Below are positions 730 to 27,934 of a stretch of DNA of 48,424 nt, in pieces; the stretch's first letter is position 1, and every line of letters starts with the position of its first letter. The stretch is taken from assembly GCA_949295265.1 (NCBI GenBank), contig CASFKR010000002.1, positions 1 to 48,424 on the forward strand. The letters are read 5' to 3'. The translations under genes were made by a program, and so were the position numbers. Origin of the DNA: an uncultured Verrucomicrobiota bacterium. Lineage in GTDB: Bacteria > Verrucomicrobiota > Kiritimatiellia > RFP12 > UBA3636. The notes under the pieces are model-generated. The model was not told the DNA's origin. It made no database searches and worked only from the letters and a program-made list of their open reading frames with translations.

Positions 730-3291
730 CTACGGAAGGCGGCGGCAGACGCGGAAACCGATGTAGATGTAGCCGGCATAGACTGGCGAATTAAACTCAC
801 GGTCACATGCGCGCGGACTGCCGTAGTAGCCGAAACTTCCGCCCCGTATCGAGCGGAAATTCATGCGGTCCGACGGCGGCGGACGCTTGTCCACGGGGTC
901 AAGCCCGCCCGCAAGCCTTTCGTAGTGATAATTGTCTTCGCACCACTCGGCAACATTCCCGCCCAAATCGTACACGCCGTCGCGCGACACGTCGCGCCCG
1001 TCCGAGCCGCGCAGGTTCACGCATTTGCGCAGGCCCCGCGCGAGCGGCTCGTCACCCCACGGATAGAGGCGGTTCTCGCCGCGCCCGGATGCGACATACT
1101 CCCACTCGGCCTCCGTCGGCAGGCGATAGCCGTCCGCCGCGAGATTGCACGCCCAGCCGTTTTCCTCGTCGTAGGCGGGGGTCAGCCCCTCTTTCCGGGA
1201 AAGCCAGTTGCAGTAGGCGCGCGCGTCCCGCCAGGAAACGTAGATAACCGGATCATCGTCGCGCCACGACGTGGCCGAGCGCATCTCACGATGTTCGGGA
1301 CGGAATTCCTCGTACTCGCGATTCGTCACCTCGTATTTTCCGATGGCAAACGGAGAAACGGTCACCGGACGCGCCGGACCTTCGTCCCGCTCCTTCGCCC
1401 GGGCACCCATCGTGAACGTACCGCCGGGGATTTCGACCAGTTCCGGAACCGGCGGGACGACCGTGCCGTCCCATTTCGCGACCTCGTTGCGGACCAGCGC
1501 GACGGCCTTGAGATCCGCGCCGCCCCAGTCCGACCAATCGTAGACGTACGGCACCTGCACCCGCCTGCCGTCCTTCGTCACCCACTTCCGCTCGGCGCCC
1601 GTCATGCGGTCGCAGACGATGCGGACCTTCGTCGCGCCCTCGGGAATCGACCAGAGGAACGCCATTTCGCGCACCTCTCCACCCGTCGGCGGCAGGTAGA
1701 GCGGCAGGATGTGCGCATGACTCTTCTCCGCCAGCCACGGCAAATCCACATGCAGCGAATAGCGCGCCTCCTCATCGGACGCATTGACGTACTTTACGCG
1801 GAACGAATAGCTGCCGGACGCAAAATCCGGCGGCAGCGTCCATTCCGTGCCCTGCGTCGCGTCCCATGTCAGCACGGGCTCGCCCGCAACGGCGCACTGC
1901 GTCCACATGCGCTGCGTACCGTTGTAGCCGAGCGCCAGCGAGTTCCGTTCGGTCTCCTGCGCGGCAATCTGCCGCCGGCCGGAGGTCTCCACCACCGTCT
2001 TCCCGTCGCGACGGATGGCGAAGCGCGGCGTCGCGCCGGGAACCATCGGCGCGGCGAGCGACTGAAATCCGGCCGGAACGTGCGCGGAAACGGTCTTCTC
2101 GCGGCCGTCCGGACCGGCTTGGGCGATTTCCAGTTCGGCCGGAGCCGTCAGCAGCGCGCTCATGTAGACGTTGTCCTCCACATCGTCATGCACCTGGAGG
2201 AACGTATCCCGGAAATCCTGCCACGGCGTCTCCGTTTCGGGACGGAAAACGCGCGTGAGACGCTTCGGGCGCGGTCGGTATGCGGCGTAAAGCTTGTCCT
2301 GCCGGATTTCCGGGTAGCGGCCCCGGCTCTTGTAGGCGGCGGCGAAGTACGCCGTGAGGTCGAGGAAGGCCTCGTCGCGGCATGCCCAGACGCGGTTCTC
2401 CAGATCGTGCGGCAGCGAACCGCCCGTCCAGCCGCTGAGGTAGATTCCCGAATCCTCGCCGTTGTCGTTCCACGTCACGATTTCGACGAGTTCCGGCTGC
2501 ATCGCGACGATATTCCGCCAGATTTCCGCATACCCGGAAACGCCGCGGTAGTCGCGCAGATTCGAGCTGTTGTATGCGGGGCAGGGTCCGGCCATGTAGA
2601 TTTTGCCGTTCTTCATTGCGGCCAGACGCCCCGCCGCCATCCGGTCGATGAACTCCGGCACCGTGTTGTCGCAGCCGAAGAAGAATATGCCGTCGCAGAC
2701 GAAATCGGGATCGCGGAAGATATCGTTTTCCACGAGGTCGAACGTCTCGTACATCGTGTGGTTCGAAACGCCGTAAGCGGGCACAATCAGGTAGTCCCCG
2801 ACGCCGCGCTTTTCGAGCTCGGCCTTGAAATCGACGTACTTGTTCGTCAGCCGGTTGCTGCCCGACCAGCCCGAGATGAACGGCCGCCCGCCGTAGCGGA
2901 ACAGGTTCGCCCGGTCATGGAACATCACGCCCATGTCGGGATGGTTGTTCCTGTGCAGCGCCTCCTTCGTGCCATCCGGCGAAAAGAACACCTTGAAGTC
3001 CGTCCCCAGCGATTCGGCCGCCGCGAAGATGTTCGAGCTCGCCTGCACATAGCCTTCGAACGACTTCCATTCGCCCGTCTCCGGATCTTTGCGTTTCCAG
3101 TTGCCGCAATTGAGCGCCCAGCCCTCCACACCGTAGAGCCGGGCAATCATCATCTCCTTGCGGTAGGATTCGACATCCTGGTAGAAGCACGTCATGTAGT
3201 GCGCAAACACCGTACGCGCCCCCTCGACTTCGCCCGCCGCCGCAACCGACGTGCAGCCGACCAGCGCCGCCATCACCCCCAAATTCTTCAT
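730..3291 (-). CDS. GH71-like lipoprotein with C-terminal FGE-sulfatase-like domain
   Basis: 853-residue protein, last gene of operon A, 40 bases after its paralogue. The N-terminus reaches LVGC at about residue 13, a plausible lipobox. Residues ~28-400 look like glycoside hydrolase family 71: an opening FAHYM, then GVEGWALNCGNW, and EIVTWNDNGEDS near residue 270. GH71 enzymes are known as alpha-1,3-glucanases. From about residue 618 to the end is a formylglycine-generating-enzyme (SUMF1) fold: EIPGGTFTMGA, YEVTNREYEEF, YRLPTEAEWEY, YDLGGNVAEW, IRGGSFGYYG and GFRVCRR. The first active-site cysteine expected after RGGS is absent (FGYYG), so this is probably a binding or structural domain. I chose the start at 3291 because GGGAG precedes it and an N-terminal export signal follows. 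The catalytic activity is inferred only. Confidence 0.8.
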   Translation of the reverse strand: MKNLGVMAALVGCTSVAAAGEVEGARTVFAHYMTCFYQDVESYRKEMMIARLYGVEGWALNCGNWKRKDPETGEWKSFEGYVQASSNIFAAAESLGTDFKVFFSPDGTKEALHRNNHPDMGVMFHDRANLFRYGGRPFISGWSGSNRLTNKYVDFKAELEKRGVGDYLIVPAYGVSNHTMYETFDLVENDIFRDPDFVCDGIFFFGCDNTVPEFIDRMAAGRLAAMKNGKIYMAGPCPAYNSSNLRDYRGVSGYAEIWRNIVAMQPELVEIVTWNDNGEDSGIYLSGWTGGSLPHDLENRVWACRDEAFLDLTAYFAAAYKSRGRYPEIRQDKLYAAYRPRPKRLTRVFRPETETPWQDFRDTFLQVHDDVEDNVYMSALLTAPAELEIAQAGPDGREKTVSAHVPAGFQSLAAPMVPGATPRFAIRRDGKTVVETSGRRQIAAQETERNSLALGYNGTQRMWTQCAVAGEPVLTWDATQGTEWTLPPDFASGSYSFRVKYVNASDEEARYSLHVDLPWLAEKSHAHILPLYLPPTGGEVREMAFLWSIPEGATKVRIVCDRMTGAERKWVTKDGRRVQVPYVYDWSDWGGADLKAVALVRNEVAKWDGTVVPPVPELVEIPGGTFTMGARAKERDEGPARPVTVSPFAIGKYEVTNREYEEFRPEHREMRSATSWRDDDPVIYVSWRDARAYCNWLSRKEGLTPAYDEENGWACNLAADGYRLPTEAEWEYVASGRGENRLYPWGDEPLARGLRKCVNLRGSDGRDVSRDGVYDLGGNVAEWCEDNYHYERLAGGLDPVDKRPPPSDRMNFRSIRGGSFGYYGSPRACDREFNSPVYAGYIYIGFRVCRRLP

Positions 3292-3331
3292 AACTCCGCT
3301 CCCTTTCTTTCCGGCCGATACCGCACGGCGC

Positions 3332-5578
3332 CTACTCCACCCGGCGGACATCGAACCGCCGGATTTCGGCGCCCTGCATGCCCCAGCTGTCGCGCGCATC
3401 GGCCGCAAGCCACAGCATCTCGCCCTGCGCGAGCGGCACGCCCGTTGCCAGCAGCCTCGCCTCCTCGCCGCCTTTGACGGTCTGCACCGCGCGCTCTTCC
3501 GTTCCGCGCTCGAACGAGAAGCGCATCTGCCCGTGCCCTTCGCCGCCCGCAACGACGGCCTCGAAATCGTACGTACCGGACTCCGGCGCCCGCCAGCCCA
3601 GCAGCATCAGGCATTCCTTCCGCGGCCCGAGCACAACCGTCCCGTTCGTCGAGACGCTGCAACCGCCGCCGTGGCCCCACGGATTCTTCTCGCCGGTACC
3701 GGCCTGACGCCGCTTCGCCGCGCCGCCCGCCCAGTCCATGACGGTGTAGCCGCCGTCGTGCGCGATGATGGGCGGCGGCCCGTATTTGTAGGCGGCATAC
3801 CAGCGCGCATGCCCCGTCGTGTCCTTGAACGGATTCGTCACGAACGGCGCATCCTTGAGATCCGTGAGCCGCCACGTGAAGCCGACGCCGTACCCAGCCT
3901 TGTCCGCGACGAGCGGATCCGTCCGGTCGCGATACTCCTCCAGGTTGGTGCGGCCATCCCCGTCGGGGTCGGCGGACGCATCGGCGCCCGTGGCCGTCGC
4001 GAGGAGCGGGAAGCGGCCGAAATACACCATTTCGAACCAGTTCGGCAGACCGTCCCCGTCGTCATCCGCATTCTCCGTATAAACGAAGGGCTCAACCTCC
4101 GGAAAGTCTCTCTTCCATTCGGCCGCATCGTTCGAGCCGTAAGCGGCGAGCGTCATGTCCTCGCGCCAGGCCTCGCGCGCGACCCGTTCGGGGCACGTCC
4201 AGTCCAGCACGGTTTCGCCGTCGCGGCGCAGAACAACCCGGATGGCGCCCTCCTGCAGCGGGAACTGGCGGAAGGAATAGCCGGCCGGCGCCTCGCAGGT
4301 CCCATAGCCTTCGACCTCCACCTGCGCGGGTGCCGTCAGGAACGTCGAAACCTCGAGCACCGTCGGCCGGTGCGCGCGCCGCGAGAGGAACGGATAGGCA
4401 TCCTCCGTCGAAAGCGCGCGGCGGAAGATGGCGTGCACTTCGTCCTGCGCGACCGTCGGCTCGCGCCCCGTTTTCCACGTTTCGGCGAAGTGGCGGTTGA
4501 CCCGTGCGACGGTGTAACCTGTGCCGTAGGCCGGAGCCATCGACGATTCCTCGCCGTAGTCGTTCCATGTCACGAACTGCAGCAGCCGCGAATCATTCGC
4601 CATCGCCGCCTGCCAGTTCGCCCGCAGCCGGTCCAGCCCGGCGCCCGTGATGATGCCGCCGAGTTTGTTCGAGTACTGGAAGAAAAGCGGCTGACTCCAC
4701 GAGCCGCCCGCCGCCTTCACGCCCGCGATGAGGTTCGTGTTGAAGCCCCAGGCGTTGTCCGTGGCGAGGAAGCCGCCGACCGCGTCGAACGTCTCGCCCG
4801 CCCAGCGGCCGATGGCGTCCATCTGCTCCGGCGTTGCATCGCGGATGTTCGCCATCGCGTCCAGTGAGCCGTGCAGAAAGACCGGGCACGGCAGCGCCGC
4901 CCGCCACGCCGCCCACGCCGCCGCGATGCGCACCCGCCACGCCTCGTGCGTCTCGCCCTCCTGCCGCTTCGGCACAATGTTCTCCGAGTAGTAGCCGAAG
5001 AAGAGAGGCTTGCCCGCGAAGCGCGCGAGATTGGGCGAATCCAGGTGGCGCAGCACAAATTGCGCGGATGCGACGTACTGGTCGAGCATCGTGCCGTCGT
5101 CCGGGCCGTGCGGATGGCAGCTCGCATCGAAGCAGATGGTCAGCCCGAAATCGACCTTCATTTCCTCGGCGGCCTGGAAGAAGACGTCCAGCTGACGCTT
5201 CGCGCCGTTCTGACCCGCCCAGGCGTCGAACGCGAATCCGTCGATGCCCGCGCGCATCGCCCGCGCAATCTCCATTTTGGCGTTGGCGAGCGCATTCGTC
5301 TCGAACCCCTGCGGCAAAAGCGGCCAGTTGACGATCCGGCCGCCCCCGGCGTCGTAGCCGTTTTGCCGGGCACGCTCCCAACGCGCCTCCGGCGTCATCG
5401 CCGCCTCGTTGCGGAATGAGTACGGCAGCGCCCCGTGCGCCGCCGGCCAGCATCCCATGAAGTGTGCGAAAACCTTCCGCTCGGGGGGCGGCGGGAGCGA
5501 AGCTCCCTGCCGGGGCCCCATGCACCCCGCGGCCGCGAGAAGTGCGCAGAAAAGCAACGGGAATCCGACTCGCTTCAT
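3332..5578 (-). CDS. GH71-like lipoprotein with TSP3-like calcium-binding segment
   Basis: 748 residues. The signal ends LLAAAGC, so it is a likely lipoprotein and client of the LspA coded at 37339. It opens FAHFMGCW and has GIDGFAFDAW and FVTWNDYGEES near residue 330, the pattern of GH71 (alpha-1,3-glucanase family in fungi). It is paralogous to the next gene downstream. Around residues 500-550 two acidic stretches, DDDGDGLPNWFE and DPDGDGRTNLEEY, resemble thrombospondin type 3 or dockerin-like calcium loops. A C-terminal beta-sandwich (about 570-748) may bind carbohydrate. AGGA lies about five bases before the ATG. The substrate is uncertain, because many bacterial GH71 relatives are uncharacterised. 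Confidence 0.8.
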   Translation of the reverse strand: MKRVGFPLLFCALLAAAGCMGPRQGASLPPPPERKVFAHFMGCWPAAHGALPYSFRNEAAMTPEARWERARQNGYDAGGGRIVNWPLLPQGFETNALANAKMEIARAMRAGIDGFAFDAWAGQNGAKRQLDVFFQAAEEMKVDFGLTICFDASCHPHGPDDGTMLDQYVASAQFVLRHLDSPNLARFAGKPLFFGYYSENIVPKRQEGETHEAWRVRIAAAWAAWRAALPCPVFLHGSLDAMANIRDATPEQMDAIGRWAGETFDAVGGFLATDNAWGFNTNLIAGVKAAGGSWSQPLFFQYSNKLGGIITGAGLDRLRANWQAAMANDSRLLQFVTWNDYGEESSMAPAYGTGYTVARVNRHFAETWKTGREPTVAQDEVHAIFRRALSTEDAYPFLSRRAHRPTVLEVSTFLTAPAQVEVEGYGTCEAPAGYSFRQFPLQEGAIRVVLRRDGETVLDWTCPERVAREAWREDMTLAAYGSNDAAEWKRDFPEVEPFVYTENADDDGDGLPNWFEMVYFGRFPLLATATGADASADPDGDGRTNLEEYRDRTDPLVADKAGYGVGFTWRLTDLKDAPFVTNPFKDTTGHARWYAAYKYGPPPIIAHDGGYTVMDWAGGAAKRRQAGTGEKNPWGHGGGCSVSTNGTVVLGPRKECLMLLGWRAPESGTYDFEAVVAGGEGHGQMRFSFERGTEERAVQTVKGGEEARLLATGVPLAQGEMLWLAADARDSWGMQGAEIRRFDVRRVE

Positions 5579-5597
5579 CCGGGTCCTGCCCTCCCTC

Positions 5598-7175
5598 TTA
5601 CTGAATGGAGATGATCAGCCCGCGCCGGGCCGGCGCCGTGTAGATGAGCGCGCAGCCGTCGGAGGAGACGGACAGCTCGCCGTGATTGTCCGGGTTGTCC
5701 ACCCAGACGGTCTGCTCCTGCAGCGCCGCAAACACGTCCCCGCCGACGGCGCTGCCCGCCTGCAGCAGCGTCACGGAGCCCTTCGGGTTTGCGAGATCGA
5801 ATGCTTTCGTCGTCAGCTCCAGCGAAATCGGGCGGCACGTCTCCACGGTCTTCGTCGTGAATCCGCCCTGCGCATACACGGGGGCGCGCGCCGCGCCGCC
5901 CGCATCGCGCCAGCCCTCCTCCGGAATCTCGAGCGCAACGGTCGTGCCGTAGTTGAGGGCGGCCTCGCCCGTCACCTCCATGCGGCTCGCCGGACCCGTC
6001 ACGCGGACGCAGTTGTTGGAGAATTGCTCCCTCGAGCCGATCTCCAGCGCGCCGAACGACGCCGTGCCGTTGTTCAGCACCAGCGCGCAGTCGCCGAATT
6101 GCGCCGCTTCCTGCCAGGCATGATGACCGACCTTCGCCGTCTTCAGCGTCGAAAGACTTCCCCCTTCGCAGACCGTAATCGTCGAGGCGCTCCGGATGGA
6201 CAGGACATGCTGCGCCGCCAGGACGGCGCTGTTGGAGACGACGACATCCGTCCACGCCAGACTGCACGACCCGACGTCCCCGGCATACGCCGTACTCCCC
6301 AGCGCATGCGAACCGCCGTCGAAAATAAACGACAGCCCGGGATTCTCGCGCTTGTGCGAGCGCACACACCCGGCCTCAAAGGCCGCCCCCGCCGTGAACA
6401 GCCACCGGCCGGGTCCCTCCCCCTCGGAGGCAACATCGCCCGTCGTCTTGAATACGGAACCCTCGATGAGCATCTCTACCGGCTTGGTTTCGTCATTGAC
6501 GAGATTGAAGGCCGGCAGATTCCAGGTCGTGCCGTCCGTCAGATGGACACGGCTTGTTTTTCCGGAGCCGAACTGGAGCCGCATCGACGGCGTTTTCGGC
6601 GAAGACGCGACCTCCAACGCCACGCGCTCGAAGCGGAGATTGATGCCGACCGCGTTATGATAGGCGCGATTGAGAAAGAAGCCGCCTGCATCCTCGTTCG
6701 GCTGCCCCCACTGCGTCGTTCCCTTCGCCGTGCCGGTGACGCGGATTGTGCCGTCCTGAAATACCAGCAGCGGGACGGGCAGCGGGTTCCCGTCTCCATC
6801 CTTCAGCGTATCCGCGCACTTGATGCTCATGTTGTTCGAGACGGTCAGCGTATGCGTCGCCAGGTCGAACAGCATCGTGCCGACGGCCGTCGCCTCGCAG
6901 ATGAAGTTGGAAACGACGGCGTCCGCATTGAACCGGATGGTCTTGTCCACCGCAGTCCCTCCGAAGAAGACCCGGTCTGCCGCGCCGGGACCCGTCAGAA
7001 TGGATTCGGAAGACTCGGCCGTCCACGTCCAGTTGGCGGGGTCTTCAAACGCCTCGCCCGCAAACGTCCACGTCAGGTCGCGCGATGCGTCCGCCGCCAT
7101 CATCATGCCCGGAAAGGCGACACCGAGTCCCGAAAGGACCGCAACCATCCATTCTGAAACAAACTTATTTCTCAT
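5598..7175 (-). CDS. Secreted beta-helix repeat protein of operon A
   Basis: 525 residues, with a signal peptide (basic start, VAVLSGLGVAF core, cleavage near MMAADA). The rest is rich in short beta-strand phrases ending in T, V, N and D, such as LATHTLTVSNN and GTASFGALEIG, as in autotransporter-associated beta-strand or pectate-lyase-like helices. No catalytic motif is recognisable. The N-terminal pattern of W, a glycine-rich strand, ANW, 'xLFa' and a DL-HTLT strand matches the beta-helix protein at 23195-25402, so the two are diverged paralogues. The start at 7175 has GGAG six bases upstream. It could be a surface adhesin, sugar-capturing protein or lyase. Confidence 0.7.
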   Translation of the reverse strand: MRNKFVSEWMVAVLSGLGVAFPGMMMAADASRDLTWTFAGEAFEDPANWTWTAESSESILTGPGAADRVFFGGTAVDKTIRFNADAVVSNFICEATAVGTMLFDLATHTLTVSNNMSIKCADTLKDGDGNPLPVPLLVFQDGTIRVTGTAKGTTQWGQPNEDAGGFFLNRAYHNAVGINLRFERVALEVASSPKTPSMRLQFGSGKTSRVHLTDGTTWNLPAFNLVNDETKPVEMLIEGSVFKTTGDVASEGEGPGRWLFTAGAAFEAGCVRSHKRENPGLSFIFDGGSHALGSTAYAGDVGSCSLAWTDVVVSNSAVLAAQHVLSIRSASTITVCEGGSLSTLKTAKVGHHAWQEAAQFGDCALVLNNGTASFGALEIGSREQFSNNCVRVTGPASRMEVTGEAALNYGTTVALEIPEEGWRDAGGAARAPVYAQGGFTTKTVETCRPISLELTTKAFDLANPKGSVTLLQAGSAVGGDVFAALQEQTVWVDNPDNHGELSVSSDGCALIYTAPARRGLIISIQ

Positions 7176-7239
7176 GATTTTCTCCGTATTCCAAGCTCCG
7201 CACAGGAGCAAAAGTCCAAGTCATTGCCGCCGCTTTTGC

Positions 7240-8808
7240 TCACCGCCCGGCTGCGCCGTCCGGGCCGGGTGCCGCCGCTTCAATCTCGCACCAGAGCCCC
7301 CGTGCGCCGCCCGCCTCTTCGCTGGCGAGGGAGACGGCGTTCATGCCGTCCTGCAGGGTACCCGCCGCGAACGGGACGCGCCAGCCGCACACCACCCCGG
7401 TCTCCGCCGGATTCCGCGCGAACCGTTTGAGGTTCTCCTCCCGCACCGGGGCGCCGCAGGGCGCCGCGCCGTTGAGCGTGAGCCGGGGCGGCAGCCGGTC
7501 GGCATCCAGCGCCACCACGACCGAGCAGGCGGCGCCCGCCGCCGTGCCCACGCGGATGCGCACCGTACCGCCCGAGGCGAGGGCAATCGGCAGCTGATGA
7601 CCGTCGTCCATGCCCTCCGGCACGCAGTCGTGGAATGCGGGGAGGTACCGCCGTGCGGCGGCGCGGACGGTTTCGGGCGTGCAGCCGCGCGTGTAGAGAG
7701 AGCGCTGCACGTCATCCGGGAGGTACGCCGTATTGAAGAAGTAGACGCCTTCGGCTCCGGCGGTGAAAGCGTTGTCCGCCCAGCCCGCGAGCGCCGGGCC
7801 GTCGATGGCCGAGACTTCGCCGGTGCAACTCACGTTGTCGCAGACGCAGGGCAGCACCGTTACGGCGGGGTTCGCCGCTTCGAGGCGCGCACGCCAGCCG
7901 GCAAAATCGAAATCGTAGTCCGCGCCCGCCCAGAAATTCGCGACGGCAATCATGTCCACAAGCCCCTCCCGCGCCCACGTCTCTGGGTCGTAGCCGAAAG
8001 CCAGCGCAGCTTCGTAACTGGAGGGCACCCGCGTCGACAGGAGAATTGCGTGCCCGCGCGCCTTCGCCTTCTCATTAGCGTAGTCGCGGCAGCGGCGGAT
8101 GAAGGCGGTGAGAATCGGCGCCTGTTCGCGTTCCCTGCCGGGCGTCAGATGCTCCCAGAAACGCATAAAATCCAACTCGAATCCGTCCGCGTCATAGCGG
8201 TCGACCAGTTCGCGGAAAATGCCGAAGGAGAAATCCTGCACCGCGGGCTTCGAATAGTCGAGCGCGTGGCGCGTCCAGTTGCCATCGGTGCCGGGTTCGC
8301 GGCGAAGCTCGGGGTGGTCATACCAGAATCGGTTCGTGCGGATGCTCCACTCGAGATTGACGTCGTGGACGTCGTTCATCCGCTGCGAGATCCACACGCT
8401 CACACCCTTCTTCCGGCCGTATTCGCACCAGACGCTGTAGCAGTCGAAGCCGGCGTCGTGCATCCGCTTCGCGTTCAGCGGCCATTCGTTCGGCTCAATG
8501 CCCCGTGCCTTTGCCTCATCGACGGCCATCCAGATGGGGTCGCAAGCCTTCGAATCGTAGGAGGCGCGTTGCCCGTTGGCGCACGCGAAGTAGTGCGTCA
8601 CCTTTCCGCCTTCTGTGATCGTATCGAGATACCGCCGCGCGCCGTCTGCGGAGGCGACGCGCTCCTCGACGGGCACGAACGTTTTCATGCAGCCCGCCTT
8701 GAAATAATGGTCATTGTCGCCGTTCACCACGAGGATGGGGCGTCCCCCCGCCTGTTCCCGGAACGGTTGCACGACAGGATCCGAACCGGGTTGAATTGTC
8801 TGCTTCAT
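7240..8808 (-). CDS. GHL10-like TIM-barrel hydrolase, first gene of operon A
   Basis: 522 residues. It resembles glycosyl-hydrolase-like family 10 / DUF187 barrel proteins: CMKTFVPVEERV, GFDCYSVWCEYGRKKGVSVWIS, then near residue 207 DADGFELDFMRFWEH, and later AGAEGVYFFNTAY. The acidic pair in GFELDF is the likely functional centre. There is no signal peptide, so it is predicted cytoplasmic, unlike the secreted genes that follow. The start at 8808 has no Shine-Dalgarno site. I chose it because the first eight residues (MKQTIQPG) and about 180 bases upstream are conserved with the GH92 gene at 27693, with synonymous changes in codons 2 and 4. The substrate is unknown. Confidence 0.65.
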   Translation of the reverse strand: MKQTIQPGSDPVVQPFREQAGGRPILVVNGDNDHYFKAGCMKTFVPVEERVASADGARRYLDTITEGGKVTHYFACANGQRASYDSKACDPIWMAVDEAKARGIEPNEWPLNAKRMHDAGFDCYSVWCEYGRKKGVSVWISQRMNDVHDVNLEWSIRTNRFWYDHPELRREPGTDGNWTRHALDYSKPAVQDFSFGIFRELVDRYDADGFELDFMRFWEHLTPGREREQAPILTAFIRRCRDYANEKAKARGHAILLSTRVPSSYEAALAFGYDPETWAREGLVDMIAVANFWAGADYDFDFAGWRARLEAANPAVTVLPCVCDNVSCTGEVSAIDGPALAGWADNAFTAGAEGVYFFNTAYLPDDVQRSLYTRGCTPETVRAAARRYLPAFHDCVPEGMDDGHQLPIALASGGTVRIRVGTAAGAACSVVVALDADRLPPRLTLNGAAPCGAPVREENLKRFARNPAETGVVCGWRVPFAAGTLQDGMNAVSLASEEAGGARGLWCEIEAAAPGPDGAAGR

Positions 8809-8871
8809 GACCGAAGGTCTGCTGATCGTGTGTATTTTTCTGTTTTGCTTTGCGGGGCATGGGCGCGGCCG

Positions 8872-8889
8872 CTTCGGGGGTCTCCGAAG
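8872..8889 (-). promoter_or_regulatory. Leader hairpin A
   Basis: CTTCGG pairs with CCGAAG around a six-base loop, about 12-29 bases after the predicted transcript start. The homologous hairpin before operon B keeps the fold with compensating changes. No T run follows directly, so it looks like a regulatory or stabilising leader element rather than a terminator. Confidence 0.55.
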
Positions 8890-8951
8890 GACGCCCCTTT
8901 CGAACCCAACATACCCCAACCCCTGCATGCTTGAAAAGAAAATTTTTCTCT

Positions 8952-8970
8952 ATTAATGCCCGATTGATGC
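8952..8970 (-). promoter_or_regulatory. Tandem half-site operator candidate A
   Basis: On the minus strand GCATCAAT and GCATTAAT repeat with an 11-base period, just upstream of the -35 region. Operon B has GCACTAAG and GCACTAAT at 27861-27843 with the same period and position. This is the geometry expected for a dimeric or two-domain activator binding one DNA face. Confidence 0.5.
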
Positions 8971-8979
8971 CGACCGCGG

Positions 8980-9171: not shown

Positions 9172-10221
9172 TTACGCGGAGGGCTCTGTGCCCTTCAAGA
9201 GGGCCCTCAGATAGCCGTTTGCAAAAAGCCGCCCCATCGTGCCATAGCCGGGAACAAAATCCGTTGACAGCAGGCGGTCCCCTTCCATTTCCGGCACATG
9301 GTCGCAACGGACCGGAACGTCGAGCCCAAGCGACCGGCAGGTTCGCATCAGCGCAAACGGGTCTGTCGTTCCCTGATCATGGAAGAGCTCGGTGAAATCC
9401 GTCTTGTCGCCCGCGACGTCGCGGACGTGGATGAAAGCGATGCGCGTGCCGAAGTGCCGCGCCGTTTCAAAGAGGTCCGCCCCCATCAACTTGAAGTTCG
9501 CCTGGCAGAACGTCACCGCATTCGAGGCGCACGGATCAAGTGCATAGGCGCGGTCAAAGTCCGCGACGGTCTCAAAAATCCGGGCATATCCGCCGAGCGC
9601 GGGCAGGCAGGGATCGTCCGGATGCAGCGCCATGCGCACGCCGAGGCGCGATGCCGTCGGCAACACGGCATTGAGGAAGCACGCGTAATTCGCCCAGACC
9701 TGTTCCTTCGTCAGGCGGAGGGATTGCGCAGACGAACCGGTTTTGGTGTATGCGGCGTCGGATTCCGCCTTGCTGAAATACGGGGCAAGGGCGCCGCCGC
9801 GGATGGAGCGCACGCCTGTGCGGGACCAGCCGGGTCCGACCATGAAATTGTAGCAAAGCAGCCGGATGTCGAGCCGGGCCATCGACTCGAGAAGCTCCCG
9901 GTAGTGCGCGAAGGCGGCTTCGCGCATTTCTTCCGCCGGGCGGGCCGTTCCGTCCGCCTCGCCGTACCGGCCGCCGGGGTCATCCGATGCGCCGTACGCC
10001 TTGACGGGCGTCATGTCGAAGGGATCGCCTTCGAGGCCGACGACCCTCAGCCCCGCCGCCTTCAGCCCCGCAACGATTTTCGACAGCGTCGGAAACCGCC
10101 ACGGATCGGGAAGCCCCGTCACGGCCGGATTGACCTTGATGACGACGGAATCGATGCCCATCTGGAGGCAGAGCGTCCAAAGGGGATGCCTGACGGGCGG
10201 TACAAATTCAACCAGTTGCAT
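9172..10221 (-). CDS. uxuA: Mannonate dehydratase
   Basis: 349 residues, the usual size of the short UxuA branch. The family converts D-mannonate to 2-keto-3-deoxygluconate in hexuronate catabolism, in the cytoplasm. MALHPDDPC near residue 198 is the family signature (ALHPDDPP). FIHVRDVAG near 263 and RCDHVPEMEGD supply the other metal-binding positions of this TIM barrel. No signal peptide is present, as expected. AAAGG lies about nine bases before the ATG. It is the last gene of operon B, 68 bases after the SGNH esterase, and links the glycan hydrolases to glucuronate-type sugars. No glucuronate isomerase, mannonate oxidoreductase or KDG kinase is present in the window. Confidence 0.85.
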   Translation of the reverse strand: MQLVEFVPPVRHPLWTLCLQMGIDSVVIKVNPAVTGLPDPWRFPTLSKIVAGLKAAGLRVVGLEGDPFDMTPVKAYGASDDPGGRYGEADGTARPAEEMREAAFAHYRELLESMARLDIRLLCYNFMVGPGWSRTGVRSIRGGALAPYFSKAESDAAYTKTGSSAQSLRLTKEQVWANYACFLNAVLPTASRLGVRMALHPDDPCLPALGGYARIFETVADFDRAYALDPCASNAVTFCQANFKLMGADLFETARHFGTRIAFIHVRDVAGDKTDFTELFHDQGTTDPFALMRTCRSLGLDVPVRCDHVPEMEGDRLLSTDFVPGYGTMGRLFANGYLRALLKGTEPSA

Positions 10222-10289: not shown

Positions 10290-11579
10290 TCACTGACCGC
10301 GCGCGTGGTCGAGGGCTTCCAGTGCGGCATCCGAGGCTTGAGAGTCGGCCGGGAACGCCGCATCGGCGGTCGAAACCGGCACCAGCGTCGCCGTGCAGAT
10401 GGAGCCGATGCGGAATTCGCCCTTCGGATCGCCCGACGGCACGGGATCGATGGCGAAGGTATGCGTGCGGCTCACGCCGTCCTGCCAGCCGTCGAGCAGG
10501 ATTCTGCGCCAGATGAAGAGGCGGCCCGGTCCCGCATTGTGACGCCCCTGGAAGGTCGTCACCTGCTTTCCGTCCGCCCGGATTTCGACCATGACCCCGC
10601 GCTCATCCGCCTCGCCGAAGATGCCGAAGAAATTCCCCGGAGCCGTCACCTCGAGCGGCGCGCGCGCCGCGCCCGAAAAGATTGCGACGTCATCCATCCA
10701 GCGCGAGGAAAGTCCGTCGTACCAGAGCGATGTGCGGTAGGTAAGGCCCCGCGCCCAGCCCGCCGGGAGCGGCGTCTCCGCCGGGTTGAACCGCCGCACG
10801 TCCCGCACCGTGCCGAAGACGGGCTGCGGCGGCACGCGGCAGACCGCGCCCTCGCGCACGCCGCGCTCGAATCCCGCAATGCCCGCATCCGCGAACATCC
10901 GGTACCCGGCGTCGACGGGATGCGCGCCGTCAATGGGCCAGAGCGAATCGGCGGGCACCTCGCCCGCATGGACGCGTTTCCACAGCGGCGTTTCATAGAC
11001 ATCGCCGACCGGCGTGCCGTAGGCCTCGGCGAGCCGGCGGTAGAGATCGCTGCGCGGATGCAACTGCGACGGCTCGGCGCCGGGCAGCGACCATTCGCGG
11101 AACGTGAAGATCATCTGCTGGACAGGGATGCCGCGCCCGATCAGTTCGCGCAGAATGTACTCGTAACAGCACGTGTTCGCGACATCCGTATTTTCGCCGC
11201 CGTCGTTGCAGGAGAAATCGAGAAAGACGAAGTCGGGGCGTTTCGCGAGGACATCCCGCTCCAGGCGGAACATACCGAGATTCGAGCCCGTTCCCCCGAT
11301 GGCGGCGTCGACGAAGGTGAAATGCGCATCCGGATACCGCGCGGTCAGATAGTCCGCCATCAGTCCGCGAAAGCCCGTCACGTTCGGTTCGCTCGCGTTC
11401 GCGCTCCATGTGAGCGACCCGCCGAAGAAAACGACCGTGAGGCGCTCCCCTGCCCGCGCCCGCGCATCGAACGATGCGACCGACGCCTCGCGGACCTCCG
11501 GCGGCCCGGCCTCCGCAAACCCGTTGACCGCGGCGCACGCGATGCCCGCCGTTCCCAAGAACAATGCGACTTTCTTCAT
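10290..11579 (-). CDS. Secreted SGNH/GDSL esterase
   Basis: 429 residues with a signal peptide. Block I is GGSLTW near residue 51 (catalytic Ser). Block II glycine is in AIGGTGSN, block III Asn in FSCNDGGEN near 124, and block V Asp-His in DGAHPVD near 220. These define the SGNH hydrolase fold, in which deacetylases of xylan and other polysaccharides are common. About 180 C-terminal residues form a beta-rich domain of unknown role. GAGG lies ten bases before the ATG. It sits in operon B, 19 bases after the preceding gene, next to a second esterase, so O-acetylated glycans are a likely target. Confidence 0.8.
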   Translation of the reverse strand: MKKVALFLGTAGIACAAVNGFAEAGPPEVREASVASFDARARAGERLTVVFFGGSLTWSANASEPNVTGFRGLMADYLTARYPDAHFTFVDAAIGGTGSNLGMFRLERDVLAKRPDFVFLDFSCNDGGENTDVANTCCYEYILRELIGRGIPVQQMIFTFREWSLPGAEPSQLHPRSDLYRRLAEAYGTPVGDVYETPLWKRVHAGEVPADSLWPIDGAHPVDAGYRMFADAGIAGFERGVREGAVCRVPPQPVFGTVRDVRRFNPAETPLPAGWARGLTYRTSLWYDGLSSRWMDDVAIFSGAARAPLEVTAPGNFFGIFGEADERGVMVEIRADGKQVTTFQGRHNAGPGRLFIWRRILLDGWQDGVSRTHTFAIDPVPSGDPKGEFRIGSICTATLVPVSTADAAFPADSQASDAALEALDHARGQ

Positions 11580-11598
11580 GATTTTTTATCCTCTTTCG

Positions 11599-18600: not shown

Positions 18601-19380
18601 GCGTTCGCTCGCCCAGCTGAGAAACGGCTGGCCGACCTGCCACTCGGTTCCGACGCCGTGATAGCCGCCGAGGTAGTCCGGTGCGCCTGTCTCCTGCTCT
18701 TCGCGGAAGTCGTCCAGCACCCAGGTCGGCGTCCCGCCGTTCGTGTTGAGAACGAGCGGCAGACCGCGCGCCTCCGCCAGCCGCTTCGCCCACAACCAAC
18801 TCTCCCGGTCGTCCAGCCCCTTTGCCGTGTCGCACCGGTTCGGGTTTGCCCAGAGGACGAGCCCCGCCTCGCCGTGCGCCTTCGCGAAGTCGAACTCCGG
18901 CAGCGGATCGTACTTCTGCCAGGGGATTCCGTACGGCTCTTTCGGGTCTTCGCTCGGCGGCGTGCTGCGCTCGCGGTAGTAGAAGCGGAAAGCATGGTCG
19001 TCCCAGGCGTTCAGGTAGAACGGAATCGCCGGCAGCGTTCCCTTGAACGACCCGCGCGGTTCTTCCGCCGACCAGGCAACGCGGAAGAGCCGCCCCTTGA
19101 CGGCGATCTTCGTCCATCCGCCGCCGGGCAGCCGGTAGACGCCGGGGCGCACCCGGTGCGCTGCGTAGACGTGGTCGTAGCGCGCGGCCCACAGGAGCGC
19201 CTTTTCAGGCGAGGCCGCCGTCACGGTGACGGTGTTCCCCGCGCGTTCGGCTGACGATGGTCCGTACCCGCGCAGGTCGCGTGCGGGCAGCCGCTCATCC
19301 GCCTCGGCGGCCACGCACGGCCGCAGGAAGCCCGCCGCAAAGGCGAGGAGGAGGGCGGCGGACAAAATTCCCGTTCTCAT
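15694..19380 (-). CDS. Giant secreted GH42-like hydrolase, copy 1
   Basis: 1228 residues with a signal peptide. The barrel resembles GH42 beta-galactosidases: acid/base candidate Glu in FLEPCGELSHG near residue 289, YLKERYGT followed by WDDVHLPE, and nucleophile candidate Glu in FSLEPGGPAS near 575. A GH2-type beta-sandwich (roughly 360-480) is inserted between the two barrel halves. A glutamine-amidotransferase-like trimerisation domain (about 640-850) and two C-terminal jelly rolls follow, with NGRYIRRHHHRFG near the end. It is paralogous to the next gene upstream. AAAGGA precedes the ATG. Substrate and family are uncertain, and it may represent an unclassified clan-A family. Confidence 0.7.
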   Translation of the reverse strand: MRTGILSAALLLAFAAGFLRPCVAAEADERLPARDLRGYGPSSAERAGNTVTVTAASPEKALLWAARYDHVYAAHRVRPGVYRLPGGGWTKIAVKGRLFRVAWSAEEPRGSFKGTLPAIPFYLNAWDDHAFRFYYRERSTPPSEDPKEPYGIPWQKYDPLPEFDFAKAHGEAGLVLWANPNRCDTAKGLDDRESWLWAKRLAEARGLPLVLNTNGGTPTWVLDDFREEQETGAPDYLGGYHGVGTEWQVGQPFLSWASERGRDVVLDTLARCLRENNSSNVVDFLEPCGELSHGDFTAFIEYGPVVDASYRTYLKERYGTAAAVAARWRDETVKSWDDVHLPEIASFAGFGPGATDLKGSWEYRLAAETGAWSRVEMPGHQLAAFLPKDPAVFRRTFDLPARAAAGERTWLYVWDLSRTAFARVGVRVNDTTFEGRVPHGSVHWMVREVTDVLRPGANEIELELPDGKCCYKVYLTHEEPKAYPYFGEGMNARWVDFCGWQEWSRARAVRRGLDRLRAVEPDKGIVSMAPMHYLTPLREIAAAYGTRFHDTGGMAAFWWELLPMLMRSKGLPFSLEPGGPASSREGFRRMTNFYMSEGVNAIHYFIHIGNVFWDDEIAAEYDLRLPALKMLGRMTPPATDIAMVVDSGVNHVMGFPWRTDIASAYPSGYMTWRFAATLGNSFQLDAVTPCDFADGNAANYRFLLDANNTLMDEAQVAGIERYVREGGTYVAMFQSGRHAPLVPDCWVLKDLAGVEPAQLSVYAQEPDDKGRPQIVCKGPFGRVTRTDGSDASRQSAYGRADGVRYRVLDPSVEVLWRWDDGSPAVTVRRLGKGRFVSFGIRPHDIHSGWQFTVLRELLTDLGAQEKPIAMTGGRRFARHYVTTDGLYDVWYADTEGASDYTLSFRDGKAREITDVLTGRPMALSGHFNANDFVMGTSPRGEDERAAWHWVRNQFGWWQGGPGERRAAASAPPPAPAAAPPSDVLPLTGGWRDGAGCAASIAPRIVGLDEAPEQDVLTRPFTVPADWTDGDVELWAVGLYTSQFTEAALAIHLDGKEIRREMRGGVCGLVLPVQAGETHELTFTLSRDAHPRVRGFFGPIYLYCRPHPAQTLDLGGTWEALADFTGSRAAPVTLPGEYKSACALRRQVVVPADWKGRRVRIDFASRKDRLVGVIVNGRYIRRHHHRFGDRTWLDITPFLRFGEANELILVGNTAPGQNGIVDFVRLLQF

Positions 19381-19394
19381 CAACTGTGTTCCTT

Positions 19395-23138: not shown

Positions 23139-23194
23139 TTTGCGTTTCCTTTTCTGCGTTCAGGCCTTCGATTCAGGACTGTTCCGCCCGCCGT

Positions 23195-25402
23195 TTATTT
23201 CACCATCAGCAGCGTTCCTTCCGTGACGCTGAGCGTCAGCAGACGGCGGTCGTCCGAGAGCTTCACGCTCGCGAACGGATTCGCGTCGGAGGCCGCCGCC
23301 TGAATGTTGGCCAGCAGTTCATCCGACAGGACGATCCGGTTTCCTTCCGCATTCGACCCCGAATACCGGATGAGCGGCACATTGCGGATCTGCCAGGAAC
23401 CGGCTCCCGACAGATTGAAGGAGAAGACGGAATCGTCCGTAAACCGGAGCGCGGCCGCCGTCGATTCAAACGGGGCAACGGTGTAGCCGCCGGCCGGTAC
23501 ATGGAACGCGAACGAGCACGCATTCGTGAAGACGCCCCCGTTTCCTGAGCCGAGTATAAGCCGCGGCGAAGCACCGTAGAACGAGAGGCGCATCTCCCCT
23601 GTCGATCCCGTGTCATTTTGATTGTAGCCAATCCGGAATCCATCCGCATACGAATAGTCCGTGCCGATATTCAAGACGCCGTTCGAGATGACGACTTCCT
23701 GCCCCCATCCGCGCACAATCACACCGCCGCAGCGGAGCGTCGCCCCATCGCCGACCCACAGACGATTGCCCGAATTGCTGAAATTGCCCAATTGAACGCG
23801 GGCAGAACCTTCGTCCGACAACGCCAGATTCGCGCCCTCAATCCGCACATAGTTGTTGGAGGCATATTGCACGACGGCTCCGTCCTCCGCGGCCGCTTGG
23901 CCGATGTTCATCGTCTTCACGCCGGTAAGGACGCCGCCGCTGAGAATCTCCAACCCGTTTCCGGACGCGCCGTCGTATCCCACGTGCACCTGCGCACTGT
24001 TGCTCGGACTCAAGTCGACCACCGTTCCGGCATCGCGGATGACAAACCGGTTGTCGGTCGCCGCCGGCGTACAGCCGACGACAATCTGCCTGCCCACAAC
24101 AGCTTGGCCGCCATCCGCAATCTCGAACACGTTCGAAACATTCACCGCGTCCACTAAACTCCCGTTCTTAAGGTCATCCGAATGACGCGTTGCGACCACA
24201 AGGCTGCCGGACGTCGTAACAAGCGCGCCCTTGTCGACCAGCACGCGGTTCCAGCGCGAAGTGATAGCCGTTGCCGCGCGGCCCGAAAAGAAGCTCTTGT
24301 TCTGGCCGCCCGCCGAAATTGCGCCGGCATAGACGCGGGCGCCGTCCGTAATGTGGACAAGATTGAATTCGCCGCCCTGCCCTGCGATGAGCGGGTAATC
24401 CCCGTTGACCTGCTGCCCCGCATTGGTCAGCACCGTTGCGGGCCCGGCGACATACAGCAGGTTGGACGAACTGTCCCAATCCCCGCCGATGTAGACGCCT
24501 TTGTTGTTCAGGTCCGCAAATGCGCCGTCCACCAGCCGCAGTTCATTCCCGTGCGACGCCCAGGTCTGCAAAACCCCATCCGAGTTTTTCCGAGAATATC
24601 CGCCGCCCAGTGTGCACGCCAGGGAATAATCCGCCGGCGCACGGCAGACCAGCGTTGCATTCGAGACGGTGAGGGACGCCCCGCCGACTGCGCCGTACGT
24701 ATCGTAGCCTCCGACGTTCAGGATGCTGATGTTGGTGACGCTCGCCCCGTCCGCAATCAGGCCGCGCGCGCCCCAGCCGGCGCCGCCGATGTTGAACCGG
24801 CCGCCGTTGATGTCCGCCGTCGTTCCCCCGCCTGTGAACGTAACCTCGCACGCCGCGCCGCGCGCGTCCAGCGAGCCCTTGTACGAGCCGCCGTCCCGCA
24901 CCGTCAGGTCCTTCGCGCCCGTATCGGCAAATGAGAGATTGCCGATGAAGCCGCCCGTCCCCTCGATGAACAGGGAATAGCCGCTCTTCGAATGCCACAC
25001 ATTCACGTTCTGCACGACGCCCGCCGCATTCGTGAAGGCGATTGTTCCGTTTTGCACGATGTTCGTCACGCCCCGGTGCCGATGGTCGCTGTACGCCGAG
25101 AGAAAGGTCAGCGTGTGCCCGCCGAGGTCGTAGGTGACGCGGTAGGGGCCGTCCTCATAGAACCATGTTCCTGCGCTGGCGAGGTCACCATCGAGCCGCA
25201 CGGTATAGTCATCGGAAGGCGTGCCCTTCGCAAAGAGCATGTTGTTCGCCGAGACGCCGGAAAACGGCGCATCGCCGCTCCAGTTCGCCGCGTCGTTCAG
25301 TGCGGCGCCGTCCGCCCCGATCCACTGCGCATTGTCCGCCGCGGCGGCAAACGCACACCCTGCGGCCAGTGCCGCAAAGAAGAATGATTTCAGATGATCC
25401 AT
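23195..25402 (-). CDS. Secreted beta-helix repeat protein of operon B
   Basis: 735 residues with a signal peptide (FFFAALAAGCAFAAAADN). Almost the whole chain is made of short strands and turns such as GSYKGSLDARG, LNVGGYDTYG and GGEFNLVHITDGARVYAG, typical of right-handed beta-helices with autotransporter-like repeats. No transporter beta-barrel and no PEP-CTERM tail is visible. It occupies the same second position in operon B as its paralogue (5598-7175) in operon A. The role may be surface glycan binding or scaffolding. Confidence 0.7.
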   Translation of the reverse strand: MDHLKSFFFAALAAGCAFAAAADNAQWIGADGAALNDAANWSGDAPFSGVSANNMLFAKGTPSDDYTVRLDGDLASAGTWFYEDGPYRVTYDLGGHTLTFLSAYSDHRHRGVTNIVQNGTIAFTNAAGVVQNVNVWHSKSGYSLFIEGTGGFIGNLSFADTGAKDLTVRDGGSYKGSLDARGAACEVTFTGGGTTADINGGRFNIGGAGWGARGLIADGASVTNISILNVGGYDTYGAVGGASLTVSNATLVCRAPADYSLACTLGGGYSRKNSDGVLQTWASHGNELRLVDGAFADLNNKGVYIGGDWDSSSNLLYVAGPATVLTNAGQQVNGDYPLIAGQGGEFNLVHITDGARVYAGAISAGGQNKSFFSGRAATAITSRWNRVLVDKGALVTTSGSLVVATRHSDDLKNGSLVDAVNVSNVFEIADGGQAVVGRQIVVGCTPAATDNRFVIRDAGTVVDLSPSNSAQVHVGYDGASGNGLEILSGGVLTGVKTMNIGQAAAEDGAVVQYASNNYVRIEGANLALSDEGSARVQLGNFSNSGNRLWVGDGATLRCGGVIVRGWGQEVVISNGVLNIGTDYSYADGFRIGYNQNDTGSTGEMRLSFYGASPRLILGSGNGGVFTNACSFAFHVPAGGYTVAPFESTAAALRFTDDSVFSFNLSGAGSWQIRNVPLIRYSGSNAEGNRIVLSDELLANIQAAASDANPFASVKLSDDRRLLTLSVTEGTLLMVK

Positions 25403-25452
25403 GATGACCTGCCTGATTGTTTCCTGTTTCCGTAATGATCCGAATATAAAAA

Positions 25453-27693
25453 TCAGTCCGCCGCGAAATCGACGGGCGCGTCCGTCATCTCAAAGACGAG
25501 CTCGCCGCCGCGCAGAAGCGCCTCGTGCGAAAGCGCACGGGCCATTACGCGCGAGCCGTTGAGCGTGACGCGCCGTACGTACTTCGCCGTTTCCGAAAGG
25601 CCCTCCGCGCGGATGCTCAGCGTCCTGCCGCCCGGCAGCGCGAGGCACATTTCCTCCGCCTGCGGCGCGCCGATCACATACCCGCCGTCGCACGGGTTGA
25701 ACGGATAGAACCCCATCATCGAGAAGAGGTACCACGCGCTCATCTGCCCGCAGTCGTCGTTGCCGCAGAGTCCGTCCGGAGCCGGAAGATAGCAGTCGCG
25801 GCAGATGTCCCGCACGAGTTCCGCCGTGCGGGACGGCCGCCCCAGAACGGCGGGGAAGTAGGCGATGTGGTGGCTCGGCTCGTTGCCGTGCCAGTACTGC
25901 CCGATCCACCCGTCCGTAAAGCGTCCGTCCCGTTCGGCGGAGGTCGGCTTCGCGCCCAGGCGCGGCGTCGCGAAAAATTCATCGAGCTTCGCGAGCGCTT
26001 TCTCGCGCCCGCCCATCGCCTCGGCGAGCCCGAAGGGGTCCTGCAGGACGAACCACGTGTAAATCCAGGCGTTCGCTTCGGTGTAGTCCGGCCAGAATTC
26101 GCCCGGTACGCGCCCCGCGCGCGGGTCGAACGGCTCGCGCCAGCCGCCGCCCGACGTCTTCGGCGCCCGGGCGCGCGCAAAACCGGTCTTTTCGTCGAAG
26201 ACGTTTTTCCAGTACCCTGCGTACTTCCGGGCTTCCGCCGCCGTCTTCGCGTTGCCGGTCTGCTCCGCAAAGTGCGCGATGCACCACCAGTCGTACGCGA
26301 ACTCCAGCGTGCGCGATACGCTTGCGCCCGGCTGGAGATGCCGGTCGAACACGCCGGGGAAGTACGGAAAGTAGCCGTTTTCCCAGTAGGCGTTCCAGCA
26401 GTTGACGGGGTTTTCGCCGTCGTTGCCGATCATCGACTGCACCATCAGGGTCAACGCCGAACTCGCATCGAAATGGCGCCACCCCTTCGCCCAGGCGTCG
26501 ACGAGGACCGGGATGGAGTGGATGCCGATCATGTCGTGCGTGTCGTCCGCCCACATCGCCCACATCGGGAGGTGGCCGTGGTGGCGGCCGAACGAGAGGA
26601 GGGAGTCGACAAATCCGCCGACGCGCTCCGGCGCAATCAGGGTGTAGAGCGGATGCGCCGCACGGAATGTGTCCCACAGCGAGAGCGTCGAGTAGTGCCC
26701 CCGCTGCGCCGTCGCAATGCAGTCGTCCGCCGTGCGGTAGCGGCCGTCCACGTCCGTCTGCACGTTCGGCTGGATGCAGAGGTGGTAGAGTGCCGTGTAC
26801 CAGCTTGTCTTCTGCCCGTCCGTCCCCTTCACGAGCCGCGCACGGGACAGGAGGCTGTTCCATGCGGCGCGGTTCGCCGCACGCACGGACTCGAACGTCG
26901 CGCCGCGCGTCTCGGCCTCGCGGTTCTGCCGTGCGCCGTCCTCGGAGACGGTCGAGAGGGCGACCTGCACGGTTACGGGGCCGTCGCCGTCGAATTCGAC
27001 GACAAACCGGTCACCCGCCCCGTCGAAGGCGTCGGACGCGAGGCGCCGGATGTCCGCCCACGGGCGGTCGAACACGATGTCATAGAACAGCCGGTAGAGC
27101 GTCCAGCCCCGCGCACGCTTGCCGCCCGCAATTCCGGTCCGGTCGGCCGCAAGCGTACAGGACGATTCGGGTACGCGCAGCCCGAGTTTCAGGTCCCACG
27201 GCCGCATCAGCATCGCCGCGGCATCCACGTAGAGCCGCTTCGGCGCGCCCGCCGGCCAGGTGAACCGCCACCAGGCGACGCGCGGCGATGTGGTCGCTTC
27301 GGCGCGGATGCCACCGTTCTCCAGCGTGACGGCGTAGCCGTCGGGTGCGCAGACCTGCGTCTCCTTCCGGAACGGCGAAGCCAGCGCCGTCTCATCGAAC
27401 GCACCGGTGAACGGCATCAGCAGAATGTCGCCCATCGCCGGACACCCCGTGCCGTTCAAGTGCGTCTGCGAAAAGCCCCGGATTGTCGTGTCCGTATGCT
27501 TGTACCCCGAACAGGTGACGCTCTCGCCCGTGTCAGGACTGGCTTGCACGAGACCGAACGGATAGCACGAGCCGGGGAACGTGTTACCCTCGCCGACGGA
27601 ACCGATGAGCGGATCAATCCAGCGGACGAGGTCTTCCGCCGTCTCCATTGTGTGCGCGCCCGCATCCGGACCGGGTTGAATCGTCTGTTTCAT
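25453..27693 (-). CDS. GH92 exo-alpha-mannosidase, first gene of operon B
   Basis: 746 residues, close to family length. Signatures are WIDPLIGSVGEGNTFPG, YPFGLVQASPD, GFSQTHLNGTGC followed by MGDILL, YWHGNEPSHHIAY near residue 604 and GNDDCGQMSAWY near 646. GH92 enzymes are calcium-dependent inverting alpha-mannosidases acting on N-glycans or mannan. Relatives are usually exported, but no signal peptide is present here. The start at 27693 rests on conservation of MKQTIQPG and the leader with the gene at 8808. METAEDL at codon 16 is the alternative. With the GH38 gene nearby, alpha-mannosides are a likely target. Confidence 0.9.
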   Translation of the reverse strand: MKQTIQPGPDAGAHTMETAEDLVRWIDPLIGSVGEGNTFPGSCYPFGLVQASPDTGESVTCSGYKHTDTTIRGFSQTHLNGTGCPAMGDILLMPFTGAFDETALASPFRKETQVCAPDGYAVTLENGGIRAEATTSPRVAWWRFTWPAGAPKRLYVDAAAMLMRPWDLKLGLRVPESSCTLAADRTGIAGGKRARGWTLYRLFYDIVFDRPWADIRRLASDAFDGAGDRFVVEFDGDGPVTVQVALSTVSEDGARQNREAETRGATFESVRAANRAAWNSLLSRARLVKGTDGQKTSWYTALYHLCIQPNVQTDVDGRYRTADDCIATAQRGHYSTLSLWDTFRAAHPLYTLIAPERVGGFVDSLLSFGRHHGHLPMWAMWADDTHDMIGIHSIPVLVDAWAKGWRHFDASSALTLMVQSMIGNDGENPVNCWNAYWENGYFPYFPGVFDRHLQPGASVSRTLEFAYDWWCIAHFAEQTGNAKTAAEARKYAGYWKNVFDEKTGFARARAPKTSGGGWREPFDPRAGRVPGEFWPDYTEANAWIYTWFVLQDPFGLAEAMGGREKALAKLDEFFATPRLGAKPTSAERDGRFTDGWIGQYWHGNEPSHHIAYFPAVLGRPSRTAELVRDICRDCYLPAPDGLCGNDDCGQMSAWYLFSMMGFYPFNPCDGGYVIGAPQAEEMCLALPGGRTLSIRAEGLSETAKYVRRVTLNGSRVMARALSHEALLRGGELVFEMTDAPVDFAAD

Positions 27694-27753
27694 GGTCGTC
27701 ACGCTGCTGATGGTGCTTTTTTTTTCTGTTTTTCGGGGCGCACAAAAGCACCC

Positions 27754-27773
27754 GTTTCAGGGGCCTCCGAAAC
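27754..27773 (-). promoter_or_regulatory. Leader hairpin B
   Basis: On the minus strand GTTTCGG pairs with CTGAAAC around a six-base loop. One G-U pair forms only in the minus-strand RNA. Compared with hairpin A, one C-G pair is replaced by T-A and one G-C pair by G-U, so the fold is kept while the sequence changes. Confidence 0.55.
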
Positions 27774-27842
27774 CGCCGGACACACCCTTCGCAACCAACA
27801 TAACCAAACCCCTGCACAAATAGCAAGTTTTTTTTTTACTAC

Positions 27843-27861
27843 ATTAGTGCTTACTTAGTGC
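27843..27861 (-). promoter_or_regulatory. Tandem half-site operator candidate B
   Basis: GCACTAAG and GCACTAAT on the minus strand, with an 11-base period, 17 bases upstream of the -35 box. They match the pair before operon A in spacing and position. Confidence 0.5.
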
Positions 27862-27934
27862 CGTCCGAAAATTTCCCGTTTCAGAACAGAAAAAAGCCCC
27901 TTCGTGGACCTCCATTTACCGATTCCGTGCGGCT

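Follow-up and report, generated by a model that had tools for sequence, protein, structure and literature searches.

Glycan loci that lack SusCD have already been published for Verrucomicrobiota from marine metagenome-assembled genomes, and the same source names polysaccharide uptake without SusCD as an open question for the phylum (PMC8857213). Among C-terminal modules of exported proteins, the closest described case is PEP-CTERM, for which phylogenetic profiling served to find the machinery (PMC1569441). Among exosialidases, the GH156 enzyme EnvSia156 uses Asp14 as base, His134 as acid and a triad of Arg129, Arg202 and Asn346, with Arg246, Trp164, Phe203, Phe278 and Trp279 also named in its active site (PMC6811678). 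Here we describe a window of 48,424 nucleotides, the whole stretch of DNA that was analysed (contig C2 of a draft genome of 2.82 Mb from an uncultured gut-type bacterium), in which a sequence-only reading had noticed two parallel cassettes and proposed a modular blueprint for glycan loci. Our analysis confirms part of that observation and lends partial support to the blueprint idea; the part worth following is a family of exported passenger proteins together with the short tail on which they end.

Two operons with a duplicated leader

Both cassettes exist. All 12 of their genes, called from open reading frames and codon scores with our own script, lie on the minus strand, and the short gaps between them fit two operons (A and B). 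The twelve genes listed earlier stand, and a divergent GH38-like gene missing from that list is added here:

730–3285, minus strand: A5, exported, GH71 plus FGE-sulfatase domain (PF03659, 7e-42; PF03781, 3e-43)
3332–5578, minus strand: A4, GH71, lipoprotein-like N-terminus LLAAAGC by eye (PF03659, 1e-20)
5598–7175, minus strand: A3, exported passenger with an N-terminal W..F.DPANW domain and the C-terminal tag RRGLIISIQ-stop
7240–8808, minus strand: A2, GH156 exosialidase candidate, starts MKQTIQPG, by eye without signal peptide (PDB 6rzd)
8768–8927, minus strand: leader A, with the inverted repeat TTCGGAGACCCCCGAA at 8873–8888 and the first codons of A2
9172–10221, minus strand: B8, mannonate dehydratase (UxuA) family (PF03786, 4.5e-45)
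10290–11579, minus strand: B7, exported GDSL-type esterase (PF13472, 3.6e-16)
11599–13725, minus strand: B6, 708 aa, inside operon B
13739–15676, minus strand: B5, exported SASA-type carbohydrate esterase (PF03629, 1e-15)
15694–19380, minus strand: B4, large exported GH42-like protein, paralogue of B3, with a 48% relative in L050/L109
19395–23138, minus strand: B3, large exported GH42-like protein (PF08532, 2e-8), with a 53% relative in genome G113
23195–25402, minus strand: B2, exported beta-helix passenger with the C-terminal tag EGTLLMVK-stop
25453–27693, minus strand: B1, GH92, starts MKQTIQPG, by eye without signal peptide (PF07971, 3e-147)
27653–27816, minus strand: leader B, with the inverted repeat TTCGGAGGCCCCTGAA at 27756–27771, terminator-like by pattern scan
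28725–31901, plus strand: GH38-like gene, divergent from B1 and operon B, alpha-mannosidase candidate

A shared leader is also present, with 8768–8927 and 27653–27816 being 72% identical over about 165 bp ahead of each. Because this repeat includes the first eight codons of the first genes, A2 and B1 both begin MKQTIQPG, and these unrelated proteins have nothing in common beyond 11 leader-encoded residues. The inverted repeat, TTCGG-AGRCCC-CYGAA, occurs twice in the window against 0.23 occurrences expected at up to two mismatches. A structured RNA was rejected, as the leaders fold no better than shuffled sequences (z −0.23 and −0.35), and there was no Rfam match. A pattern scan found no sigma-70 promoter on the leader strand; by eye, TTGCTA/TTTTCA-18-TATGTT gives a promoter-like reading. 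An HMM built from the two copies returned no third copy in the window or in 39 other stretches of this genome, and the start motif had no further match at up to one mismatch in 19 genomes of the family, this one included, where the sole other match carries two mismatches. With no third copy found, the leader was dropped as the mark of a regulon and most plausibly represents a control region that was duplicated locally. Since both operons carry it, they are probably expressed together.

A separate 150-bp repeat, 75% identical, links window positions 27951–28100, which form the intergenic region between the GH92 and GH38-like genes, with 36822–36953, near tandem repeats at 35728–36164.

Enzymes of the two operons

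The first gene of operon A had been read as GHL10-like; its PF02638 score of 18.9 bits falls short of the cut-off of 27.9, and that assignment was rejected. A2 instead aligns with PDB 6rzd (E 3.7e-58, residues 26–420), indicating homology to EnvSia156, and in the alignment it keeps 10 of the 10 active-site residues named for that enzyme (PMC6811678), with D31 as the equivalent of the base, H148 of the acid, R143/R216/N359 of the triad, and R260, W178, F217, F292 and W293 as the remainder. By this residue-level agreement A2 is a candidate GH156 exosialidase. The GH71 assignments in operon A were sound: A4 and A5 score 74.1 and 143.9 bits against the PF03659 cut-off of 34, which places both in GH71, and A5 has the additional FGE domain. 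Against the GH71 structure 9fnf, A5 (6e-16) keeps a WND-GE motif and A4 (2.6e-5) keeps WNDYGE, a motif that we take to be catalytic.

In operon B the GH92 call for B1 was upheld. The proposal that each operon carries two paralogous hydrolases holds for B3 and B4, which share 27% identity over 1116 aa (E 2e-65), and is limited for A4 and A5 to an alignment of 206 aa (E 1e-12). Neither B3 nor B4 reaches the GH42 cut-off of 21 bits for PF02449 (B4 scores 11.8 and B3 is unlisted), and the one domain above its Pfam cut-off is GH42M, in B3. B6 matched nothing in Pfam, in NCBIfam or among PDB sequences. The GH38-like gene is assigned weakly, with both PF01074 (1.7e-3) and PF09261 (1.5e-3) below cut-off. 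Taken jointly, GH156, GH92 and GH38 would point to sialylated, mannose-containing host glycans, and the presence of a candidate GH156 sialidase in a lineage that has members in the gut suggests host glycans as food. No SusC or SusD family matched any scanned window protein, as the sequence-only reading had held, and the adjacent SusC/SusD pair that defines a Bacteroidota-type PUL is absent among them.

A family of exported passengers

The second genes of the operons had been described as paralogous beta-helix proteins. Their relation is weak (73 aa, 30%, E 6e-4), with the N-terminal domain and the last residues alone in common, and A3 belongs to no Pfam or NCBIfam family. An AlphaFold2 model of B2 forms a right-handed beta-helix with medium confidence (pLDDT 61, pTM 0.67), followed by about 50 residues after the solenoid with a low-confidence strand at 730–733. 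This model resembles autotransporter passengers and the adhesin PfbA; clear Z values came only from VIA comparison (18.7 to Vag8, 17.6 to UpaB), and Foldseek gave nothing below E 0.001. The model of A3 is too poor to give a fold (pLDDT 36), so that the beta-helix claim stands for B2 by its model and extends to A3 as a presumed fold. Neither A3 nor B2 matched a barrel family of the type V translocator kind.

The N-terminal domain has 23 matches (E up to 1) in 22 genes of this genome, and the passenger family thus comprises at least 22 genes here; across the phylum, 151 of 387 genomes encode the same domain. A crude signal-peptide test was passed by 14 of 20 passengers picked by their N-terminus. 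In another genome the passenger beside a B3 relative (RGIG5528; L049, 5505–10421, minus strand) was called as two ORFs of 1072 and 544 aa, the second of which ends SGMILIVR.

A conserved C-terminal tail

Nearly all N-terminally picked passengers end on a common tail, [GA]-T-h-h-h-h-[RHQK]-stop. Among 20 such proteins, T stands at −6 in 14, one of V/I/L/M/F at both −4 and −2 in 19, and R/H/Q/K at −1 in 19. For counting, the tag was defined as a chain end in R, H, Q or K, preceded by four residues that are all small or hydrophobic and include three or more of VILMF; this pattern was drawn after tails had been seen, and the fixed pattern applied to other genomes is the test free of that. In the own genome it occurs in 17/20 N-terminally picked passengers against 13/413 other ORFs (p 9e-20), and in 10 of 13 genes unseen before the search (p 6e-12); shifted inward by 20, 30 or 50 residues, the five-residue pattern is found in 0/433 each time. 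Two of the three misses come close to it (VITLY, TRLILR). By our own reading, several of the 13 tagged other ORFs are evidently the same kind of protein, and four or more look like chance matches or membrane proteins. The tag also stands on other domain types, namely a PA14/GLEYA protein (L076_10) and an FG-GAP protein (L135_3), both picked by the tag itself, and on LamG-bearing proteins.

The tail is conserved as protein, because 177 of 309 same-residue pairs use different synonymous codons and the flanking DNA is unlike (29–31%), for which reasons a DNA repeat or a common terminator was rejected. Nor does it answer to the description of PEP-CTERM, which comprises Pro-Glu-Pro, a transmembrane helix and a basic cluster: the PEP motif and a TM-like stretch each occur in 0/20 N-terminally picked passengers, and the two PEP-CTERM-like proteins of this genome score 1.6 on the same TM scale. 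No Pfam or NCBIfam model that matched the scanned proteins describes the tail, and a search of titles and abstract openings, in a collection with few subscription papers, gave no report of it.

A different but related tail, SP-x-x-SGPF-h-h-x-I-x, ends three proteins (L070, 8901–10361, minus strand; L071, 543–2042, plus strand; L168, 3623–4792, minus strand) and is perhaps a second tail class. Two of these are LRR_5 proteins by Pfam, and L070_7 is one by resemblance.

Distribution of the tail in other genomes

Sixty C-termini from other genomes were hand-picked among the listed places (frames mostly below 2000 aa), giving 58 complete ends. With the pattern fixed, the tag was found in 5 of 6 genes from the same family and 9 of 14 from the same order (14/20 together), in 6 of 19 from other orders of the class and in 0 of 19 from other classes. 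At least 17 homologues from other orders or other classes end in PEP-CTERM instead of the tag, and there PEP-CTERM starts right after the last passenger strand, the position at which the tag starts here. Loss of exosortase was rejected as an explanation, since 49 of 50 genomes of the two kinds encode the enzyme, this one among them (contig C62). This genome also encodes two proteins, of a kind other than the passengers, whose PEP-CTERM-like ends are nearly identical (L122_13 and L130_10). With exosortase and at least two PEP-CTERM-like proteins in one genome, the two systems may coexist side by side.

The tail behaves like a sorting signal because it is fixed at the C-terminus, stands on diverse domain types and alternates with PEP-CTERM between lineages, and we regard it on these grounds as a candidate sorting signal. 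Several observations weigh against this reading. First, no partner enzyme or transporter was found, and the exosortase distribution speaks against a simple swap of machinery. Second, 6 of the 20 family and order genes lack the strict pattern, three of the six coming from one family of the order (f3). Finally, the tail could be conserved because the beta-helix needs it to fold, as a final strand or a cap. The hydrophobic residues at −4 and −2 in 19/20 proteins suit a beta strand, as does the low-confidence terminal strand in the B2 model; against a cap, the pattern is bound to the very chain end and closes on a polar or basic residue, other classes have PEP-CTERM at the end of homologues with this N-terminal type, and PA14 and FG-GAP proteins bear the tail too. 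We consider a folding cap rather unlikely.

The tail might otherwise be a mark akin to the beta-signal, recognised either by the machinery that assembles the outer membrane or by an exporter of the T9SS type. The hydrophobic residues at −4 and −2 and the small ones at −7 would resemble the beta-signal. Against this, just 1 of 20 N-terminally picked passengers has an aromatic last residue, and no barrel family or NCBIfam T9SS C-terminal sorting family was found among the 12 helix or tagged proteins scanned (A3, B2 and ten others); L135_3 matched a T9SS-dependent protease model at E 0.048 only, in mid-protein. A beta-signal-like role is quite improbable.

Gene order and neighbours of the passengers

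The blueprint idea predicted a common gene order in related genomes, and on comparison this was not supported: the leader was seen only here, a helix gene can follow its hydrolase (L049), and hydrolase pairs occur without any helix gene. The full five-part order was seen in this window alone. What survives is the association of helix protein and hydrolase. In this genome, 10 of 20 scanned genes next to tagged passengers or in their vicinity belong to sugar-acting families over Pfam cut-offs (SASA, DUF2334, GH10, two BNR, two GH5-like, GH92 and two GH42), compared with 2 of 20 randomly drawn controls (p 0.007), neighbours having been scanned at E up to 0.01 and controls at 1e-4, with counts taken over the cut-offs. 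The 20 neighbours include genes one position off or beside tag-picked genes, and are not all direct neighbours of N-terminally picked passengers; leaving aside four whose regions had first been retrieved in a GH42 search gives 8/16. Three weaker sugar matches and three GntR/LacI regulators also lie near tagged passengers.

Elsewhere in this genome GH92 is followed by a passenger, as in operon B (L172); exceptions are L164, where two passengers have a resolvase next to them, and L165 and L169, where the neighbours look like housekeeping genes. In other genomes, a passenger precedes a GH71-FGE gene 54% identical to A5 (L066), a helix gene precedes a B3-like gene and GH92 (L057), and a B3-like gene precedes a helix gene with a divergent GH92 beside it (L049), the latter two loci having been found through their B3 relative. 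Tandem B4-type and B3-type pairs without a helix gene, in reverse order, occur at L109, L110 and L117, so that paired paralogues are a trait of the GH42-like enzyme family. The CO.O62 genome has three B4-type GH42-like genes in tandem (L114, 476–12131), and in two further places a gene that by eye looks prepilin-like directly before a B3-type gene, standing as if in the passenger's place (L108, 44–880; L111, 1–741).

The two operons could also be ordinary, independently assembled CAZyme clusters, with helix proteins that are secreted lyases or adhesins and a leader that is a meaningless local duplication. The leader's two copies, the varying gene order among relatives and the roughly half of passengers that lack a directly adjacent sugar enzyme agree with this; sugar enzymes are nevertheless enriched near passengers, and helix-hydrolase adjacency recurs in three other genomes. 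We hold independent assembly to be rather unlikely. Passengers and hydrolases do go together, though loosely: the recurring element is a glycan hydrolase with an exported passenger next to it.

Proposed function

Each operon encodes exported hydrolases, as judged by family and N-terminus, and one exported passenger of the tagged family. We hypothesize that the tail directs the passenger to the outer membrane or the cell surface to hold glycan near the secreted hydrolases, and that the first enzymes without signal peptide, the sialidase-like GH156 protein and the GH92 mannosidase, trim imported sugar chains inside the cell. PEP-CTERM passengers of other Verrucomicrobiota are presumably sorted likewise. 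This account, of glycan operons under a duplicated leader with tail-sorted, glycan-holding passengers, is the one we favour, with moderate confidence. A bolder proposal, that Kiritimatiellia have a new C-terminal sorting system whose tail is carried by at least two dozen surface proteins in each genome, replaced PEP-CTERM on glycan-binding passengers, is read by some partner and gives glycan operons a surface capture protein in SusD's stead, is tentative and somewhat doubtful.

If the tag picks out surface proteins of glycan operons, it would supply a genome-wide list of candidates and offer a handle for finding its machinery by phylogenetic profiling.

Comparison with known systems

Like PEP-CTERM with its exosortase (EpsH), the tag is a short module at the C-terminus of many exported proteins of diverse kinds within a single genome, and PEP-CTERM is found on the same kind of passenger and in the same place. 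The tag differs in having about 10 residues without PEP, transmembrane helix or basic cluster, and in not tracking exosortase. Autotransporter passengers (Vag8, UpaB, TibA, Ag43) share the right-handed beta-helix, here by the B2 model, and export; they differ by their translocator barrel, whereas the passenger chain here ends with the tag. A2 is like EnvSia156 in all ten named active-site residues, and differs in its operon with GH71 genes and, by eye, in its missing signal peptide. Finally, the PUL-like clusters without SusCD described for Verrucomicrobiota also have co-located hydrolases and esterases, and relative to those clusters as described the two operons are set apart by a tagged passenger in each and a shared leader (PMC8857213).
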